Shown here in pieces: positions 1,469 to 42,901 of a stretch of DNA of 64,000 nt. Positions within the stretch are counted from its first letter, which is position 1; each line of letters starts with the position of its first letter. The notes beneath the pieces are model-generated. The model was not told the origin of the DNA. It saw only the letters and a list, made by a program, of their open reading frames with translations, and ran no database searches. The DNA is from Leisingera sp. ANG-M7 (lineage in GTDB: Bacteria > Pseudomonadota > Alphaproteobacteria > Rhodobacterales > Rhodobacteraceae), in the NCBI RefSeq assembly GCF_000813965.1, contig NZ_JWLI01000001.1, positions 186,001 through 250,000 on the forward strand. The letters are read 5' to 3'. The translations under genes were made by a program, and so were the position numbers.

Positions 1469-2791
<1,323 letters not shown>

Positions 2792-2825
2792 TCATACCAG
2801 CCGCTGCAGGAAAGTAAACCGGGAT

Positions 2826-2868
2826 CGTTATCGCTAACACGCATAAAAGCGGCAGGTTAGGGCTAACA
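2826..2868. promoter_or_regulatory. Paired dyad operators upstream of eno
   Basis: Two 14-bp near-palindromes, CGTTATCGCTAACA (2826-2839) and GGTTAGGGCTAACA (2855-2868), each match the symmetric sequence TGTTAGCGCTAACA at 12 of 14 positions. Their centres are 29 bp apart, close to three helical turns. This resembles, from memory, the LacI-family CceR-type operator used for central carbon genes in alphaproteobacteria. The regulator assignment is inference; the dyads are directly visible. Confidence 0.6.
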
Positions 2869-2916
2869 AGGCGCTGTTTGCGCCAACAGGGTAGAGGATT
2901 TCCGCCAGCAGGGACG

Positions 2917-3810
2917 TCAGGCCGCAGCAGCAGCCGCCCGGCGGGCCCGCCGTGCCAGCCGCTGCTCGCGCACAAAGGTGTAAAGCCCCGATCCGATGAT
3001 CAGCGCAGCCCCTGTCAGCGTCAGTGCATCCGGCCTTTCGCCAAAGACCAGCACGCCCGCCAGGATCGAAAACAACAGCCTAGTATAGCGGAACGGCGTC
3101 ACCGCAGAGGCATCCCCCACCCGCGTTGCCGTGACAATGCCGTAATACCCCAGCACGCCGAACAGCACACCGCCTGCCAGCATCAGGTATTCATTCTGCT
3201 CCATCACCTGCGCGTCGCCAGGGGTGAACGCAAGCAGTAGCAGACCCGCAGGAATGACCGACAGGAACGCCTGAAAACTGACAATGGTGGAGGGCACCGC
3301 GCTGTCCATTACCCGTGTCATCAGATCACGCGTGGCAACACCCAGCACCGCGATCAAAACCAGTAATGCCGCAGGCTCAAAGCTGTCCAGCCCCGGCCGG
3401 ATGATCAGCAGCACCCCGGCAAAACCGACGCAAATCGCCAGCCAGCGCCGCCAGCCGACCTGCTCGCCCAGAAACAGCGCAGCCCCCATAGTGATCACCA
3501 GCGGCGTCGCCTGAAACACGGCGGCCACAACCGAGATGTCGACCAGCGCTAGCGCCGAGGCAAAGCCCATTGCCGATACCGCCTCTGTCCCCGCACGCAG
3601 TACGGGCCGCAGCCGCCAGGACCGCGGCGCAAACAGGTTGTGCCCTTGCATCTTGGCCATTACCGCAAAGACCAGCCCGCTGCCAACACCAAGGCAGATC
3701 AGGATCTGCCCGACGGGCAAGGTACCGGACAGCTGCTTGATGAACATGTCTTCAAGCGTGAAGGCGGCCATCGAGACGATGACCAGCAAAATGCCGTGCA
3801 GGTTGTTCAT
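2917..3810 (-). CDS. EamA/DMT-family transporter
   Basis: This is a 297-residue inner-membrane protein with about ten hydrophobic segments arranged as two EamA repeats. Sequence landmarks are the N-terminal FTLEDMFIKQLSG, the mid-protein LFLGEQVGWRRWLAICVGFAGVLLI and the late LVFGERPDALTLTGAALIIGSGLY, all typical of drug/metabolite exporters. The C-terminus is basic and alanine-rich, so probably cytoplasmic. The ATG at 3810 gives the usual length; a frame 17 codons longer has no support. Substrate cannot be inferred. This is one of three such transporters in the window. Confidence 0.85.
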   Translation of the reverse strand: MNNLHGILLVIVSMAAFTLEDMFIKQLSGTLPVGQILICLGVGSGLVFAVMAKMQGHNLFAPRSWRLRPVLRAGTEAVSAMGFASALALVDISVVAAVFQATPLVITMGAALFLGEQVGWRRWLAICVGFAGVLLIIRPGLDSFEPAALLVLIAVLGVATRDLMTRVMDSAVPSTIVSFQAFLSVIPAGLLLLAFTPGDAQVMEQNEYLMLAGGVLFGVLGYYGIVTATRVGDASAVTPFRYTRLLFSILAGVLVFGERPDALTLTGAALIIGSGLYTFVREQRLARRARRAAAAAA

Positions 3811-4064
3811 GTTCGCGCGTCCTGTATTGCAGACCGGCAGCACGCCAGACCATCCGGGCAAAAAACATCAGTGTCCCGGCGTGGGCAACTCCGTTTCCGA
3901 CGCCCTGCCATGACAAGTCGTTACGGCAACCATCAAGACTTCTGATATATATTAAGGAGTACCAGCTCCCGGTTGCAGCCGCAGCATATCGGCAGTGTCC
4001 CGGGGTTCCGCCGCACCACATATCGCGCCGCACACCGTTTCCATATCCAGCAGGAGACACCCTG

Positions 4065-4628
4065 ATGCCAGACTTCGACCCGCTGAATTCACTGATCAAA
4101 ACCGCCAAGGACGCCGAGAAGGCGATCGACGAGCTTGGCAAATCCGCCGTGGATGAAATCAGGGCAGCCATGCATGATGCCAACAAGGCGGAGAACAAGA
4201 GCTATCCCATCGCCTATGAGCACATGAAACGTTCCATTGATGGCAAGGGGAACATCAGTCACGGGGTGAAATCAAAAATCTCGCAAGCCATCCTGAACAG
4301 CGCGGAACTGCGCAAGATTGCTGCAAAGCACAAGAATCCGGTCAAGCTGAAGAATGTGACGATCTTCTTCGTCAAGAACCGCGACCTTGCCAGAACACTG
4401 TATCAGGCGTCCCTCTCCGGCAATCTGACCCCCAAGGGCAAGACGTTCGAATTCGATGGAACAGTGAACGATGTCTATGACTTCCGCTGGGACTGGGTCC
4501 CCAAGAAGAAAACAGTCAGAGGGTTCAAGCTGCGCTATGCAGGCAATGCCGCTTATCTGGCGCAGCAAATGAAACTGATGAAGTCCTACAAGATCACGGT
4601 GCAGATCAAAGGCGAAGCCAAGCTGTAG
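4065..4628 (+). CDS. Uncharacterised 187-aa protein, atypical composition
   Basis: I do not recognise a family. The protein has no signal peptide or membrane segment, is Lys-rich and soluble in appearance. It begins with a helical region (residues 1-50) and ends with predicted beta strands. The segment FDGTVNDVYDFRWDW (about residues 129-143) loosely recalls GTxxDxYDF motifs seen in the C-terminal parts of some bacterial toxins, but this is weak. A strong AGGAG site precedes the ATG. By eye the GC content is clearly lower than in its neighbours, and it sits alone between convergent and divergent core genes, consistent with recent acquisition. Confidence 0.7.
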   Translation: MPDFDPLNSLIKTAKDAEKAIDELGKSAVDEIRAAMHDANKAENKSYPIAYEHMKRSIDGKGNISHGVKSKISQAILNSAELRKIAAKHKNPVKLKNVTIFFVKNRDLARTLYQASLSGNLTPKGKTFEFDGTVNDVYDFRWDWVPKKKTVRGFKLRYAGNAAYLAQQMKLMKSYKITVQIKGEAKL

Positions 4629-4650
4629 CTTGGCCAGTTCTCCGGCAGGT

Positions 4651-5064
4651 TCAGGCCTTCTTGGCCGGCACCCCGTAAAGCTCCAGCTTGTGCCCGCGCA
4701 GTTCATAGCCCAGCTTACGCGCGATCCGCTCCTGCAGTGCCTCGATTTCCGGGTCGCAGAACTCAATCACCTCGCCGGTGTTCATGTCGATCAGGTGGTC
4801 ATGATGCTCACGTTCAGCATCCTCATACCGCGCCCGCCCATCGCCGAACTCCAGCCGTTCCAGAATCCCCGCTTCCTCGAACAGCTTCACAGTGCGGTAC
4901 ACTGTGGCGATGGAAATCCCCGCGTCCATCGCGCTGGCGCGCGTATACAGCTCCTCGACATCCGGATGATCATCGCTGTCCTGCAGCACCTGGGCAATCA
5001 CCCGGCGCTGGCCGGTCATGCGCAGCCCCTTGGCCTCGCAGCGGGCGATAATCGTCTTTCGCAT
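4651..5064 (-). CDS. fur: Fur-family regulator (Fur/Mur type)
   Basis: This 137-residue protein has an N-terminal winged helix (GLRMTGQRRVIAQVL, then SIATVYRTVKLFEEAGI) and a C-terminal dimerisation and metal-binding domain with HHDHLIDM. Wording such as ERLEFGDGRARYE and LELYG matches the alphaproteobacterial Fur group that usually acts as Mur, the Mn-responsive repressor of sitABCD-type uptake, rather than Irr. It lacks an Irr-type haem regulatory motif. Whether it senses Mn or Fe here is inferred from the family. It is a single gene convergent with the orphan gene at 4065-4628. Confidence 0.9.
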   Translation of the reverse strand: MRKTIIARCEAKGLRMTGQRRVIAQVLQDSDDHPDVEELYTRASAMDAGISIATVYRTVKLFEEAGILERLEFGDGRARYEDAEREHHDHLIDMNTGEVIEFCDPEIEALQERIARKLGYELRGHKLELYGVPAKKA

Positions 5065-5414
5065 CTCTTCCTCGTGGTTTTCTGACCTTCCTCTTTAACG
5101 GATGCATTCTGCGGCGAAAACAGGCTTTTCACCCGTATCAAAGCTTGACAAACACCTTATCCACAGCCATTTGGCGCACAGGCATCCCTCCCTGCCGCGT
5201 GAGCAGAGGCCATGAGACCGGGCGCGCATCCAGCGCATGACAATATTCCGGGGTCTAGTGATATGCCGCCATTCCCAAGATCACGCGTGGGGATTGCAGA
5301 GGCCAGCGGCCTGGCATCCGGCCAGCGCGCGCCCGAGGTCCCTGCCCCGCATGAACCCGCTGCCGCGCAGCGGACCCGGCCCGTGCAGACCGCAGGGCCG
5401 TGAAAGGACGATAC
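5065..5414. other. 350-bp divergent region between fur and DEAD-box helicase
   Basis: No credible gene is present. A TTGACA hexamer lies at 5145-5150, but no good -10 hexamer follows at 16-18 bp, so no promoter is called. The helicase mRNA may have a long GC-rich leader with several short inverted repeats, as is common for RNA helicase genes. Confidence 0.4.
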
Positions 5415-6740: not shown

Positions 6741-6869
6741 GCCAGCGCCGGGTCAAGGGTCCCGAAGGGACCGCGCGAAACGCGCGGCTTGCCCTTGACG
6801 CGGCACTGGCAAACCACACATTTGAATTCGCGCCCAAGGGCAAATCTGCCCTTGGGCGCCTCTCAGCAT
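6741..6869 (+). repeat. Family A structured intergenic repeat, copy 1
   Basis: An outer stem GTCAAGGG (6752-6759) / CCCTTGAC (6792-6799) encloses two small hairpins. It is followed by a terminal stem-loop (GCGCCCAAGGGCA / TGCCCTTGGGCGC) and the shared end CTCTCAGCA. The same layout recurs at 14341-14467 and 16438-16618, always 3' of a plus-strand gene and in the same orientation. Confidence 0.75.
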
Positions 6870-6948
6870 ATAATCCCTGCGCTGAGCAGCAGCGCCACGC
6901 CCAAGCCTGACGGCAATTTGCCGGAAAAGGCGCGGAAGCGCGCCCGCC

Positions 6949-7653
6949 TCAAACCGCCCGCAGATCCGCCCAGACCGGCAAATGGTCCGAAGCGATATGG
7001 GCAGGCCGCCCCCCATGCACCCCATGCGCCACGGCCTGCAAACGCTTGCAATGAGCGATCCGGTCCAGCGCCCCCAGGGGCCTGAGCGCTGGAAAGCTGG
7101 GCCTGGGCGGCAGGAACTTCAGCGCCGGTGCGATATGCTCCAGCACCTGGCCGCGCGACCATTCATTGAAATCACCCGCCAGCACCACGGCAGCGTCATC
7201 ATGTTTGGCGGCCCGTGCCAGCGCATGCATCTGCTCGCGCCGCGCCCGGCCTGTCAGCCCCAGATGCGCACCAATCACCCGCACCACGCCCAGTCCAGTG
7301 TCCAGTTCCACCCAAACCGCACCGCGCGGTTCCAGCCCCGGCAGGGCGATATGTCCCTTGGCCCTCAGCCGAACCGCATTCCTGAACAGCACCGCATTCC
7401 CGTGCCAGCCCAGCGAACCCGCGCCGCCCAGGTCCGCCGCCTGCCAGCCGGTTTCCTCCACCAGGAAATGCGGCAGTGCCGCCGGGCGCGGCGGCAGGCG
7501 CTTGTCCGCCTCCTGCAACACAGCCACATCGGCCTTGATCCCGCCCAGCACCTGCAGAATCCGCTCGGGCCGCCGACGCAGGTCCAGGCCGATGCATTTC
7601 TGAATGTTGTACGTGGCAATCCGCAGCGTATCAGGCCTTTTGGCTTTCGGCAT
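6949..7653 (-). CDS. Endonuclease/exonuclease/phosphatase (EEP) family protein
   Basis: The 234-residue protein has the EEP fold signature: ATYNIQ at the N-terminus, LQEAD (metal-ligand Glu), the HLGLTGRARREQ segment, GDFNEWSRG and a C-terminal SDHLPVWADL. These provide the metal and catalytic His/Asp residues of Mg-dependent phosphodiesterases. Members cleave DNA, RNA, phospholipid headgroups or nucleotides; the substrate here cannot be named. Start at ATG 7653 with GGGGGA upstream; a longer frame to 7815 runs into the divergent transporter promoter. No signal peptide is present, so it is cytosolic. Confidence 0.85.
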   Translation of the reverse strand: MPKAKRPDTLRIATYNIQKCIGLDLRRRPERILQVLGGIKADVAVLQEADKRLPPRPAALPHFLVEETGWQAADLGGAGSLGWHGNAVLFRNAVRLRAKGHIALPGLEPRGAVWVELDTGLGVVRVIGAHLGLTGRARREQMHALARAAKHDDAAVVLAGDFNEWSRGQVLEHIAPALKFLPPRPSFPALRPLGALDRIAHCKRLQAVAHGVHGGRPAHIASDHLPVWADLRAV

Positions 7654-7775
7654 CCGTCCCCCTTTCGCTGTCCCGATCTTGCGCAAAACCCGTGCCGCCG
7701 TACAGCCCCGATCCGGCCGCCAGCGCCACCGGGTTCCGCTTGACTTGCCGCGGCTGCCCGCCTCCAGTTGCCGCC

Positions 7776-39794: not shown

Positions 39795-40712
39795 TTACGG
39801 ATCCGTCCGCAACCGCCCAGCACCACGAAAACGCGGCATCGCAGGGGCGAACTGATCCCAGACCAGATAGAGACCCGAGGCGATCACGATGGCGCCTCCC
39901 AGATAGGTTGTGGCGGGCGGAAACTCCTCAAAGAATACCGCACCTATGACGGCCATCCAAATAAACTGCAGGTTCATCAGAGGCGTCACGGCGTAGGAGG
40001 CCAGAAGCCGTAGCGCCACTACCAAGAGCCAGCGCGCGCCGAACAACAAAAATGCATAGGCGGCCGCCCAAGCAACATCCGCCAACGGCATCGGCACCCA
40101 GACAAAGGGCAGCGCCAGCAGCATCGCGCCGCACAGCGTCAAGTTCGGGTAAAACACCTGCGCCAGCGCGTTGCTCTCATGGCGCCCAATGAACCGGGCC
40201 ATGGTCATGGAAAACGTGCCGGAAACAACCGCTGCAAAAGCAACAAAATGCCCAGTTGAGGTATGACTGCCATCACCGCCATGCGGCAGCAGGAACAGCA
40301 CCCCGGCAAAACCCGCCAGCAACGCAATCCAGGCCGCCGGACGCACCGGCTCCTTCAGCACGAGGCCGGACATCGCCCCCGCCAAGAGCGGCATCAGGCC
40401 GATGAAGACAAACACCTCGGCAAAGGGCAGCAGCCGGAAGGCATAGAAAAAACAGACAGCGGCAATCAGCGTCGCCACAGAGCGCAGCGCCATCGCCCGC
40501 GGGCAGCGGGTGCGAAAGCCGCCGCGCAAGCGGGGCACACGGTCAGCCAGCAGGCAGAAGCCAACCACCATGGCCCCCGACAATGCATAAAGCTGCGCCG
40601 CCGCATACTGGCCCGCCAGAAGCTTGGTGATCCCGTCGGCCGAGGCGATCAGCCCGGTATAAGCCACGACCAGCAGCGCCCCGCCCAGGGCTTGGTTGCG
40701 GGAACTGGCCAT
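39795..40712 (-). CDS. EamA/DMT-family transporter in the FSSGS-repeat locus
   Basis: This is a 305-residue protein with ten predicted helices in two EamA halves (LLPFAEVFVFIGLMPLLAGAMSGLVLKEPVRPAAW; YAVTPLMNLQFIWMAVIGAVFFEEFPPATTYLGGAIVIASG), placing it among drug/metabolite exporters. Its ATG overlaps the stop of the upstream 353-aa gene (TAATG), so the two are translationally coupled. That links it to the repeat-protein locus. It may export a product of that locus, but DMT proteins usually carry small molecules, so this remains a hypothesis. Confidence 0.87.
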   Translation of the reverse strand: MASSRNQALGGALLVVAYTGLIASADGITKLLAGQYAAAQLYALSGAMVVGFCLLADRVPRLRGGFRTRCPRAMALRSVATLIAAVCFFYAFRLLPFAEVFVFIGLMPLLAGAMSGLVLKEPVRPAAWIALLAGFAGVLFLLPHGGDGSHTSTGHFVAFAAVVSGTFSMTMARFIGRHESNALAQVFYPNLTLCGAMLLALPFVWVPMPLADVAWAAAYAFLLFGARWLLVVALRLLASYAVTPLMNLQFIWMAVIGAVFFEEFPPATTYLGGAIVIASGLYLVWDQFAPAMPRFRGAGRLRTDP

Positions 40713-41773
40713 TACGCCGCCCCCGCACTGCCCGCCCGGGCAAACCCTTCAAAGAAATGGTCAAACCCGGCGCAGCTGCGCTCAGCTGCGCAGAGCAAAC
40801 CGTGCTGCTCCTCAGTCAGCATGGCCTCAGTCCGCGCCCTGACAGCACTCCAGCCCGATCGGCCCGTTCCGGCCTCAAAGACGGCTTCTGAAAGGCTCCT
40901 CAAGATACTTCCTCCCCGCACCGCTGACACATGCACGCCCCCTGCGGGAACTGCCTGTCGGAAGGGTTTTCGACCGGACAGGACCATGAGCCAGTTAGTA
41001 ACAAAATACTCGTGATAAGAATCGTGAAGTCCAGAAAATTCTCGCTCCGATAGAGTAAAGGCGGATACATGCCTGTCAAGCCAGCACTCCCAGGCCGCGG
41101 GCGGCTGCTGCCCGGCATAGCGCAGCGCGATGCAGATTTCGGCCAGCAGATCGGCGTTCTGGTCCAGAAAAGCCACCAGCCCTGCGAACTCCAGGCTGGT
41201 CAGCGCGGCCTGCGGCAGCTGCGGATCCCGGCGGCCGTATTCCGACAGGTAAAAGACAATATGGGTCAGCTCGTAAGCAGCTTTCTTGTTCGGAATGGCA
41301 AAGGTTTCCGGGCGCGAGATGAAAGCGCGCAGCCGGTCGTCCAGCCCATAGTCCTGCAGGGTCTCGCCGCGGCGGGCCAAAAGGCGGCGGGCCTCGGCGC
41401 GCTGCAGATCGGACAGCTCTGCCTGCGCCAGCCCTTGGTCCCGGATCCATGCGGCCAGCTGCGCCCCGGTGCCGCCGGGCAGGCCCAGATCCTCCAGATC
41501 CAGGCAGATCGACAGGATGAAGCGGTAATACTGGCGGAAGAAACTGATGTGCCGCGCCGCACCGTCGTAAAACCCCTGCAAGGGCGCCAGGGCATCAGCG
41601 GCAACATCGGCCCCGGTGCATTCCAGAATGTTCAGAAGCTCGGCGTTTTCCTTGAGCCAGAACACGTCTTCCTGGGTGCGCCGCTGTGCGGCGAAACCGC
41701 CGATCAGCGCAGCTTGCGCAGCCGCCCGGGACTGGCGGGCGGCGGGTGAGAAGAACGGGATGATCTGGGCCAT
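40712..41773 (-). CDS. Unknown 353-aa protein of the FSSGS-repeat locus
   Basis: I do not recognise a characterised family. The protein is largely alpha-helical with no signal peptide or membrane helices. Notable conserved-looking motifs are FYDGAARHISFFRQYYRF, a central KKAAYELTHIVFYLSEYG, and LHDSYHEYFVTNWLMVLSGR. Their His, Glu and Tyr residues could form a metal or active site. A strong AGGAGG precedes ATG 41773. It is 97 bp after the repeat gene and overlaps the transporter gene by 1 nt. A role in processing or modifying the repeat protein is inferred from context only. Confidence 0.75.
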   Translation of the reverse strand: MAQIIPFFSPAARQSRAAAQAALIGGFAAQRRTQEDVFWLKENAELLNILECTGADVAADALAPLQGFYDGAARHISFFRQYYRFILSICLDLEDLGLPGGTGAQLAAWIRDQGLAQAELSDLQRAEARRLLARRGETLQDYGLDDRLRAFISRPETFAIPNKKAAYELTHIVFYLSEYGRRDPQLPQAALTSLEFAGLVAFLDQNADLLAEICIALRYAGQQPPAAWECWLDRHVSAFTLSEREFSGLHDSYHEYFVTNWLMVLSGRKPFRQAVPAGGVHVSAVRGGSILRSLSEAVFEAGTGRSGWSAVRARTEAMLTEEQHGLLCAAERSCAGFDHFFEGFARAGSAGAA

Positions 41774-41841
41774 GGAAACCTCCTGCGGGTGAGTACGGCG
41801 CGGCAAGGGCGGCCCCGGGTTCGAGACCGCCATTGGTCAGA

Positions 41842-41861
41842 GGCCGGGAGGGAGACCGGCC
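41842..41861 (-). terminator. Short stem-loop between repeat gene and partner gene
   Basis: GGCCGG / CCGGCC arms with an 8-nt loop lie 10 nt after the repeat-gene stop codon (minus strand). Without a U-tract it may stabilise the 3' end of the repeat-gene message or partly attenuate downstream expression. Confidence 0.3.
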
Positions 41862-41870
41862 CCGTCCTGA

Positions 41871-42476
41871 TCAGCTGCCGGAGGAGAACAGCCGGGTTGC
41901 ATCGCCATCGCTGGTGCGGGCCTCTGCCGCCGGTGCGGAGCCGGAGGAGAACAGATGCGTCCCCTCGCCCGCGCCGCGCTCAGCCGTGGCGGCCGGCGCC
42001 GAGCCGGAGGAGAACATCTCCACGCCTTCGCCGGCACCGGTTCCGGCCTGCGCCGCAGGAGCGGAGCCGGACGAGAACATTTCCGTCAGATCACCGGAGG
42101 CAGTTTCGCCTTCCATTGCCGGAGCCGAGCCGGAAGAAAACATTTCCGTCAGATCGCCTTCAGCAACCTCTGATTGATTATCGGGCGCAGATCCGGAAGA
42201 AAACATTTGCACGAGGTCGCCCGCAGACGTGTCAGCATGTGACGCAGGCGCAGAGCCGGAGGAGAACATTTCCACCAGGTCGCCAGCCGCGGTTTCGCTG
42301 CAGGCCGACGGCGCCGAACCGCTGGAGAACAGCCCGGTTTCCCCGCCTGCCCAGCTCTCCGCCGTCTGCGGCATGGAGCCCGAGGAGAACAGCGAAACGC
42401 CTTCTCCTGCTGCCAGACCGGCAGTGCATTCAGGCGCGGAGCCGGAGGAGAACAACTCTGTTGCATCACCCTCGAA
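41871..42476. repeat. Coding tandem repeats (~63-bp period)
   Basis: The repeats of the FSSGS protein are visible as DNA: on the plus strand, GAGCCGGAGGAGAAC or close variants recur about every 60-66 bp, each being the reverse complement of the FSSGS-core codons. Codon variation among copies (AGCCGGAGGAG, ATCCGGAAGAA, GAACCGCTGGAG) shows the copies are old and not recent slippage products. Confidence 0.85.
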
Positions 42477-42539
42477 CAGGCTGGCGCCTGCGGCCGGGCG
42501 GGTGACGCGGACGGTCTGGATTTTACGCTGAGCAGTCAT
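41871..42539 (-). CDS. Ten-repeat FSSGS protein (possible peptide precursor)
   Basis: The 222-residue protein starts with a ~20-residue basic leader (MTAQRKIQTVRVTRPAAGAS). Ten repeats of 20-22 residues follow. Each contains an invariant FSSGS (start residues 30, 51, 71, 92, 113, 134, 154, 175, 197, 218), usually preceded by an acidic GD/GE-x-x-x-L/M and followed by AP (MP once). The last repeat stops exactly after FSSGS. There are only two cysteines and no lysine after residue 6. No signal peptide is visible. Linkers vary while the core does not. It heads the minus-strand group with the 353-aa protein and the DMT transporter. Confidence 0.9.
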   Translation of the reverse strand: MTAQRKIQTVRVTRPAAGASLFEGDATELFSSGSAPECTAGLAAGEGVSLFSSGSMPQTAESWAGGETGLFSSGSAPSACSETAAGDLVEMFSSGSAPASHADTSAGDLVQMFSSGSAPDNQSEVAEGDLTEMFSSGSAPAMEGETASGDLTEMFSSGSAPAAQAGTGAGEGVEMFSSGSAPAATAERGAGEGTHLFSSGSAPAAEARTSDGDATRLFSSGS

Positions 42540-42901
42540 GTTTGGAACCCCATTCGTTAAGGACAAAAGGCTCCTTGACGCTGGCACGGGCGCCGCGCAG
42601 CGCAAACAAAAAATGCAATTTCACATTGTATTTTGTAGTTTCAATTACTTTAACTTCAAGCCGCTATTTTTTGCGCAATTTCAATTATTTCAATTCATCC
42701 ACAGGATATGCACCGCGTTATTCACACGCATATTATTGCAAAGTAAAGAAACTCAACCTTAGGGGTATTTTTCACCCATGCAAAACGCTGGTGAGTCGCA
42801 GCGCCAAAGGTGATTCGCGAATCGCGCATCGGGCTTGCCCCGGGACGCTGATTCAGCGATAGATCGGCCCCGAATAAAGAATTCTGCGCCGGAGGCAAGC
42901 C
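42540..42901. promoter_or_regulatory. AT-rich divergent regulatory region of the FSSGS locus and xthA
   Basis: About 200 bp (42600-42780) are strikingly AT-rich compared with the chromosome. Three TTTCAATT octamers occur at 42639-42646, 42679-42686 and 42688-42695, two of them 9 bp apart. The region separates the minus-strand repeat operon from plus-strand xthA. No gene is credible. It probably holds promoters for both and binding sites for a nucleoid protein or regulator. Confidence 0.55.

Follow-up and report, generated by a model that had tools for sequence, protein, structure and literature searches.

What does a protein made of repeated FSSGS motifs do when its gene stands directly ahead of genes for a 353-aa protein and a transporter? 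This question is raised by a locus of Leisingera sp. ANG-M7 (contig NZ_JWLI01000001.1), of which a stretch of 64,000 nt, called here the window, was analysed; all coordinates are positions of this window. The three genes are carried by the minus strand, the precursor coming first, followed by the 353-aa protein and then the transporter. Our analysis indicates that the locus probably encodes a multi-core precursor of the ribosomally synthesised and post-translationally modified peptide (RiPP) type, together with a DUF6895-superfamily enzyme that would be dedicated to modifying each core. At the level of genetic architecture the arrangement is that of a RiPP system, namely a core-bearing precursor gene beside its own dedicated partner gene, and the short N-terminal stretch of the precursor presumably serves as leader. 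The features on which the initial annotation had relied (ten FSSGS repeats, a 1-nt overlap between the last two genes, a single direction of reading and an AT-rich upstream region) are all borne out by the coordinates, the translation and the G+C content (Table 1).

The pairing of the two genes was examined in 390 genomes of the order Rhodobacterales. DUF6902, the Pfam family of the 353-aa protein, gave matches in 108 of these genomes (107 over the cut-off), belonging to 47 of the 139 genera. From 107 genomes, the window's own being excluded, the matches were taken together with flanks of about 5 kb; one locus (L138 of genome G177, match below the cut-off) yielded no DUF6902 on rescan and was dropped, leaving 106 loci. 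A blind criterion was then applied, in which a 4-mer had to recur at least twice in a low-arginine open reading frame (ORF) located upstream on the same strand. Such an ORF was found at 96 of the 106 loci compared to 134 of 949 control positions within these loci, and when at least three copies were required the figures were 89 of 106 and 12 of 949. The ten loci missed were read by eye and a repeat ORF was recognised in nine of them (L050, L055, L087, L074, L119, L115, L057, L116 and L120), the weakest assignment being L115, where two units carry different cores, FVSGL and FCCSI. A repeat ORF thus lies directly upstream of DUF6902, on the same strand, at 105 of 106 loci (96 found blind and nine by reading). 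As a separate observation, DUF6902 was matched as five separate pieces at L137 (genome G150), corresponding either to a decaying gene or to sequencing errors, and a two-core precursor ORF is still present upstream.

The reverse search was carried out with a profile that covers two repeat units in 36 positions, built from 36 of the 64 extracted unit pairs, or close to it, plus the window's. This profile matched 100 of the 390 genomes, 97 of which have DUF6902; the three others (G101, G323 and G385) gave single matches with expect values (E) of 0.002-0.008. Eleven DUF6902 genomes escaped the profile: in nine the cores are, by reading, divergent or broken by gaps, G117 has none and the remaining one is G177. 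The co-occurrence of DUF6902 and the repeat profile gives a Fisher p of about 1e-74, a statistic that ignores relatedness. The initial annotation had made its reading depend on the repeat protein and the 353-aa protein being found together in other genomes, and they are paired in both directions of search.

Regarding the repeat protein, the tenth FSSGS copy of the window precursor corresponds to its last five residues, and Tandem Repeats Finder (TRF) detected a 63-nt tandem array at 41926-42084 within the gene. No significant match to Pfam or NCBIfam models was obtained with the precursor, nothing lying near a cut-off; DUF6749 may be a name for such repeat proteins; in the open-access literature searched it occurs in no paper, and FSSGS as a letter string in three. 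Units were extracted with a pattern that required G-[DEANSHG]-x4-F and left the four residues past the Phe free, which yielded 509 units from 91 of the 96 precursors found by the blind criterion (median of 5 units matched per protein, maximum of 20). A Ser, Thr or Cys occupies position +2 after the Phe in 508 of the 509 units, and position +1 in 93.5% of them. The dominant cores fall into 27 types, including FSSGS, FTTSM, FTSGL, FTSWS, FTSSL, FSTSC, FTCGL and FTSCA. Furthermore, 69 of the 96 precursors terminate exactly four residues past an F, mostly as F-x-[STC]-x-x, and 41 of the 96 start with MTA or MSA. In some or all units of several precursors the F is missing, as in LMPTSN (L128), MTSVA (L134), MAQSFSAP (L136), STSSF (L129 and L135) and VSSTC (L119 and L125); these units stand outside the count of 509.

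Three further observations concern the arrays themselves. A doubled core with a three-residue link (e.g., FTSGL-VQM-FTSGL) alternates with single cores as a higher-order repeat in the precursors of L041, L042, L043, L047, L049, L052, L103, L104 and L112. Two core types occur within one protein (e.g., FSTSC and FSSGS) in L065, L067, L070, L076, L077, L092 and L100, and these mixed precursors are perhaps caught in transition from one core to another. Finally, runs of N are found inside the repeat arrays of L055 and L074, and one contig end falls inside an array (G021, contigs C4 and C13, L057); assemblies therefore break in the repeats, and the copy numbers at these places are lower bounds.

The conservation of the core was compared within and between 76 proteins having at least 4 units each (546 units). 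Over the four residues after the F, identity is 96% among the units of one protein and 43% between proteins, compared to 60% and 42% for the six residues before the F and 48% and 22% for the six residues after the core, the regular expression used having required S, T or C at +2 and thereby raised both the within and the between values. Since codons differ in 4514 of 9477 comparisons (48%) at identical core residues, gene conversion is ruled out as the sole cause of core identity; recent unit duplication clearly also occurs, for example in L033. In the window precursor itself, synonymous codon differences were found in 108 of 225 core codon comparisons. Genus g34 provides a close comparison, in which five species with DUF6902 proteins 75-82% identical in all ten pairs have four different cores. 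These sequences argue that selection keeps the core copies of one protein alike while cores change between lineages.

The 353-aa protein had been described in the initial annotation as belonging to no recognised family, which proved wrong. It is a full-length member of Pfam DUF6902 (PF21843; E 8.1e-145, 482.6 bits for a cut-off of 27, profile positions 1-351 of 351), an uncharacterised family without described function, and it also scores above the cut-off of DUF6895 (PF21836; E 4.3e-21, 76 bits for a cut-off of 23.8, profile positions 17-241 of 289). The protein matches no housekeeping family; such a match was a finding that, for the annotation, would have refuted its reading. The relation between the two families was supported by an hhalign comparison of the DUF6902 profile (104 rows) with that of nine DUF6895 proteins (probability 97.3). 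When six DUF6902 and four DUF6895 proteins were aligned together, W39, Y167, H171, G180, D208, E212 and H254 were among the invariant positions and Y253 was nearly invariant; the corresponding Y, H, G, D, E, Y and H are likewise invariant among the nine DUF6895 proteins. Y167, H171, D208, E212, Y253 and H254 are accordingly shared by both families and are candidate active residues of the DUF6902 protein.

The AlphaFold2 model of the 353-aa protein is of high confidence and nearly all helical (mean predicted local distance difference test score, pLDDT, of 93). No known fold could be assigned to it, the top Foldseek row being a complement C4A fragment at E 0.11 that only hints at an alpha/alpha fold, and no convincing relative emerged when solved structures were searched by sequence, one search yielding a single row at E 0.3 and another none. 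Among the relatives of the protein, of which 80 of the 382 found were retained, the 11 best are 77-92% identical to it, nine being titled Leisingera and two Rhodobacteraceae bacterium. No paper naming DUF6902 was found in the open-access literature, and the only naming of DUF6895 found there lies in the reference list of a review, PMC13352647, in which the title of Shi et al. 2026 describes a DUF6895 protein as a lasso-peptide epimerase.

Beyond the Rhodobacterales sample, ten loci with DUF6895 were read as well. Six of them (L227, L228, L233, L234, L305 and L306) encode proteins above the Pfam cut-off, and the four others (L301-L304), picked up with tblastn (23-30% identity) and placed in the family by their alignment, lie on plasmids of Kitasatospora, Pseudalkalibacillus and two Streptomyces. 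A small ORF of 65 to 161 aa lies directly upstream on the same strand at nine of the ten loci, those of the four plasmid loci being annotated genes, and no small ORF was visible upstream of DUF6895 in L306. When eight of these peptides were aligned (the small ORF of L233 being left outside), SG was found in five and AG in two at the corresponding position of a stretch resembling a leader, and this stretch is followed by aromatic cores such as GPWFVL and AGYVLAW; by reading, the unit is duplicated in the peptides of L228, L234 and L305. Some of these loci hold additional features. L233 encodes, at positions 2539-5247 (+) and behind a small ORF of 128 aa, a 903-aa protein in which DUF6895 is joined to a kinase domain of the aminoglycoside-phosphotransferase type (PF01636, E 1.2e-21); an annotated gene of the aminoglycoside phosphotransferase (APH) family is located about 3 kb downstream of DUF6895 in L304; and in L227 a second predicted protein without Pfam match (6824-7720, +), a possible partner subunit, directly follows the DUF6895 gene.

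Taken together, these data are consistent with the following scheme. The first gene would encode a short leader and, behind it, a series of units G-[DE]-x-x-x-[ML]-F-x-[STC]-x-x, each of which bears the same lineage-specific core, here FSSGS. DUF6902, encoded by the second gene, would modify each core, most likely at or beside the Ser, Thr or Cys at +2 after the Phe, by an acid-base or metal mechanism that probably involves the invariant His, Asp and Glu. This chemistry is perhaps epimerisation, preferred here by analogy with the DUF6895 protein whose title describes it as a peptide epimerase. Cleavage behind each core, suggested by the precursors that end exactly four residues past an F, would then set free one short peptide in many copies. 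An EamA transporter gene, which might contribute to export, follows in about half of the genomes.

The contribution of the transporter can be judged from its distribution. The window protein matches PF00892 (EamA) with 47.3 bits for a cut-off of 28.2, and an EamA gene is found downstream on the same strand, within the 5 kb taken, at 57 of the 106 loci. Where erpA was recognised (100 loci), its distance from the DUF6902 frame is below 250 nt in 44 cases, all of them without EamA; in the remaining 56, EamA is present in 53. The absence of EamA from these 44 tight loci indicates an optional addition, leaves an essential role in peptide export unsupported and rules out the exporter as a defining third gene. 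Of the peptide-producing logic put forward in the initial annotation, the precursor and its partner enzyme therefore stand, on two-way co-occurrence, fixed order and core selection, and the exporter as an integral part does not, since 44 of 100 loci have neither room for it nor an EamA gene.

Several observations weigh against the reading of the locus as a precursor with its modifying enzyme. The EamA gene is absent at nearly half of the loci, and transporters of the EamA class, a group of the drug/metabolite transporters (DMT), usually move small metabolites. A Foldseek search of the model against the PDB returned nothing at E 0.001 or better, and thus no structure-based mechanism. One locus, L109 (G117), has no precursor beside DUF6902, and a few DUF6902 precursors are entirely devoid of an F-x-[STC] core. 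The presumed targets also differ, F-x-[STC] in DUF6902 precursors versus no shared Ser, Thr or Cys, by reading, in those of DUF6895, so that the chemistry may not carry over from one family to the other. Finally, a Pfam scan of eight flanking proteins of the window revealed no protease and no RiPP enzyme family. The lack of a protease family among these neighbours would suit a repeat protein that is itself the finished, uncleaved product, for instance a scaffold, surface or sequestering protein, with DUF6902 as its chaperone, modifier or motif-binding partner. Strict pairing and fixed order are what any obligate pair of partners would display, and a copy number varying up to 20 around a median of 5 fits a valency-type scaffold no less than a precursor. 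We nevertheless consider an uncleaved product unlikely: the core is kept identical more than the linker and is replaced wholesale between relatives, which is more in keeping with a released product or a recognition tag, the precursors of some relatives hold just two core copies, and DUF6902 is related to a family with a peptide epimerase reported by title. That the ORF is only a translated tandem DNA repeat without function, placed ahead of a conserved gene, is scarcely credible. A tandem array does exist at the DNA level over part of the ORF, but codons differ at nearly half of the identical core residues, linkers diverge more than cores, the MTA or MSA start recurs in 41 of 96 precursors and the ORF is present at 105 of 106 loci.

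If the locus does encode a multi-core precursor and its enzyme, the nature of the modification can be considered separately. DUF6902 may use another chemistry, such as dehydration, cyclisation, acylation or a crosslink at the Ser, Thr or Cys at +2, a possibility of appreciable though clearly minor weight that is compatible with the gene-level interpretation. The near-invariant hydroxyl or thiol at +2 (508 of 509 units) would provide a site for such reactions, and the invariant His, Asp, Glu and His of both families could hold a metal or perform acid-base catalysis. However, the α protons of Ser, Thr and Cys are relatively acidic, and the pattern at +2 suits an epimerase as well; epimerisation is moreover the activity that the title reports for DUF6895.

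The chromosomal environment of the unit is well conserved: xthA lies divergently upstream in 104 of the 106 loci and erpA convergently downstream in 100 of them. Among 103 DUF6902 proteins compared (L109, L135 and L137 being excluded), the nearest relative belongs to the same genus for 69 of the 73 that have a congener, as would be expected for vertical descent. In 20 genomes without DUF6902, xthA was sought and 19 loci were read with 1.5-kb flanks; erpA is less than 1.4 kb from xthA in 12 of the 19, the spacing being 59-72 bp in three of them, and was not found within the 1.5-kb flanks of xthA in the other 7. The proximity of erpA and xthA in genomes without the unit suggests that it came or went at one chromosomal site, at least in part of the group. 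The plasmids of the collection encode no relative; a mobile element is thus unsupported, given the lack of a plasmid match and the single site kept by the unit. Within the region separating the precursor from xthA in the window, positions 42606-42790 have 34% G+C compared to 64% for the window, and a single, weak sigma-70-like match is located at 42693-42666 (minus strand), which is about what shuffled sequences yield.

Table 1. Features of the repeat-protein locus and its flanks (positions in the window)
Feature	Position	Strand	Remarks
Multi-core precursor, 222 aa	41871..42539	minus	ATG at 42539, stop ends at 41871; direct translation and homologues
N-terminal stretch of the precursor, MTAQRKIQTVRVTRPAAGAS, short, presumed leader			Followed by ten units, each with FSSGS at its end
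Span of the ten FSSGS cores	41874..42452	minus	Core 1 at residue 30, core 10 at the C-terminus; read from the translation
DUF6902 protein, 353 aa, putative peptide-modifying enzyme	40712..41773	minus	ATG at 41773, stop ends at 40712
EamA (DMT) transporter, 305 aa, optional accessory	39795..40712	minus	1-nt overlap with the DUF6902 stop
AT-rich intergenic region, 47% G+C	42540..42901	none	Between the divergent precursor and xthA genes
xthA, exonuclease III-like, PF03372	42902..43708	plus	Conserved upstream flank of the unit; Pfam
erpA, iron-sulfur carrier-like, PF01521	39363..39686	plus	Conserved downstream flank, convergent; Pfam

If this interpretation is correct, a peptide system not studied so far is carried by marine bacteria of a widespread group (108 of the 390 genomes sampled in the order); it occupies a fixed chromosomal site and comprises unusually few genes, a single precursor and a single enzyme. 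That all cores of a precursor are replaced together would pose an evolutionary question, that of what makes every copy match, and the system would offer testable predictions for chemistry (F-x-[STC]) and biology (a lineage-specific peptide). A more speculative extension, which we put forward tentatively and regard as rather doubtful, is that the locus represents a new two-gene RiPP class of Rhodobacteraceae in which each F-x-[STC]-x-x core is modified by an enzyme of the DUF6895 superfamily and the resulting lineage-specific peptides, through wholesale core replacement, act like a code for species recognition or signalling. Narrow searches, limited to the open-access literature, found no description of a RiPP of such kind in Rhodobacteraceae or other alphaproteobacteria.

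How does this locus compare with known systems? PF13471, the family of lasso leader peptidases, had no match in the window's genome, two of 14 control genomes being positive. A lasso system was rejected on this ground and because the flanks (xthA, erpA, dgt and others) hold no lasso families, the cyclase not having been searched genome-wide. A resemblance is seen with the FxSxx-COOH peptides (NCBIfam TIGR04268), as the 69 precursors mentioned above end with F plus four residues; however, the partner of that family is a radical S-adenosylmethionine (SAM) protein, of which none was seen here among the Pfam-scanned flanking proteins, and TIGR04268 matched neither the precursor (E up to 1) nor anything in the genome, where no control matched either. 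Multi-core RiPP precursors are known from the cyanobactin and microviridin types, and the locus shares with them a short N-terminal stretch, many identical cores, divergent linkers and an adjoining enzyme gene. It differs in that the precursor has no Pfam or NCBIfam match and the other two proteins match only the DUF6902, DUF6895 and transporter models. The enzyme also resembles DUF6895: the window protein exceeds the Pfam cut-off of this family, shares its invariant Y, H, G, D, E and YH, and is likewise encoded behind a small peptide gene. By contrast, DUF6895 peptides have longer units, a leader-like stretch with [SA]G in seven of the eight aligned and aromatic-rich cores; no lasso genes or cyclase were noticed in the DUF6895 loci, whose ORFs and annotations were read without a lasso-model scan. 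If the reading of the locus is right, it would further suggest that DUF6895 and DUF6902 form one superfamily of putative enzymes for peptide modification that are linked to precursors and occur in Pseudomonadota, Actinomycetota and Bacillota.

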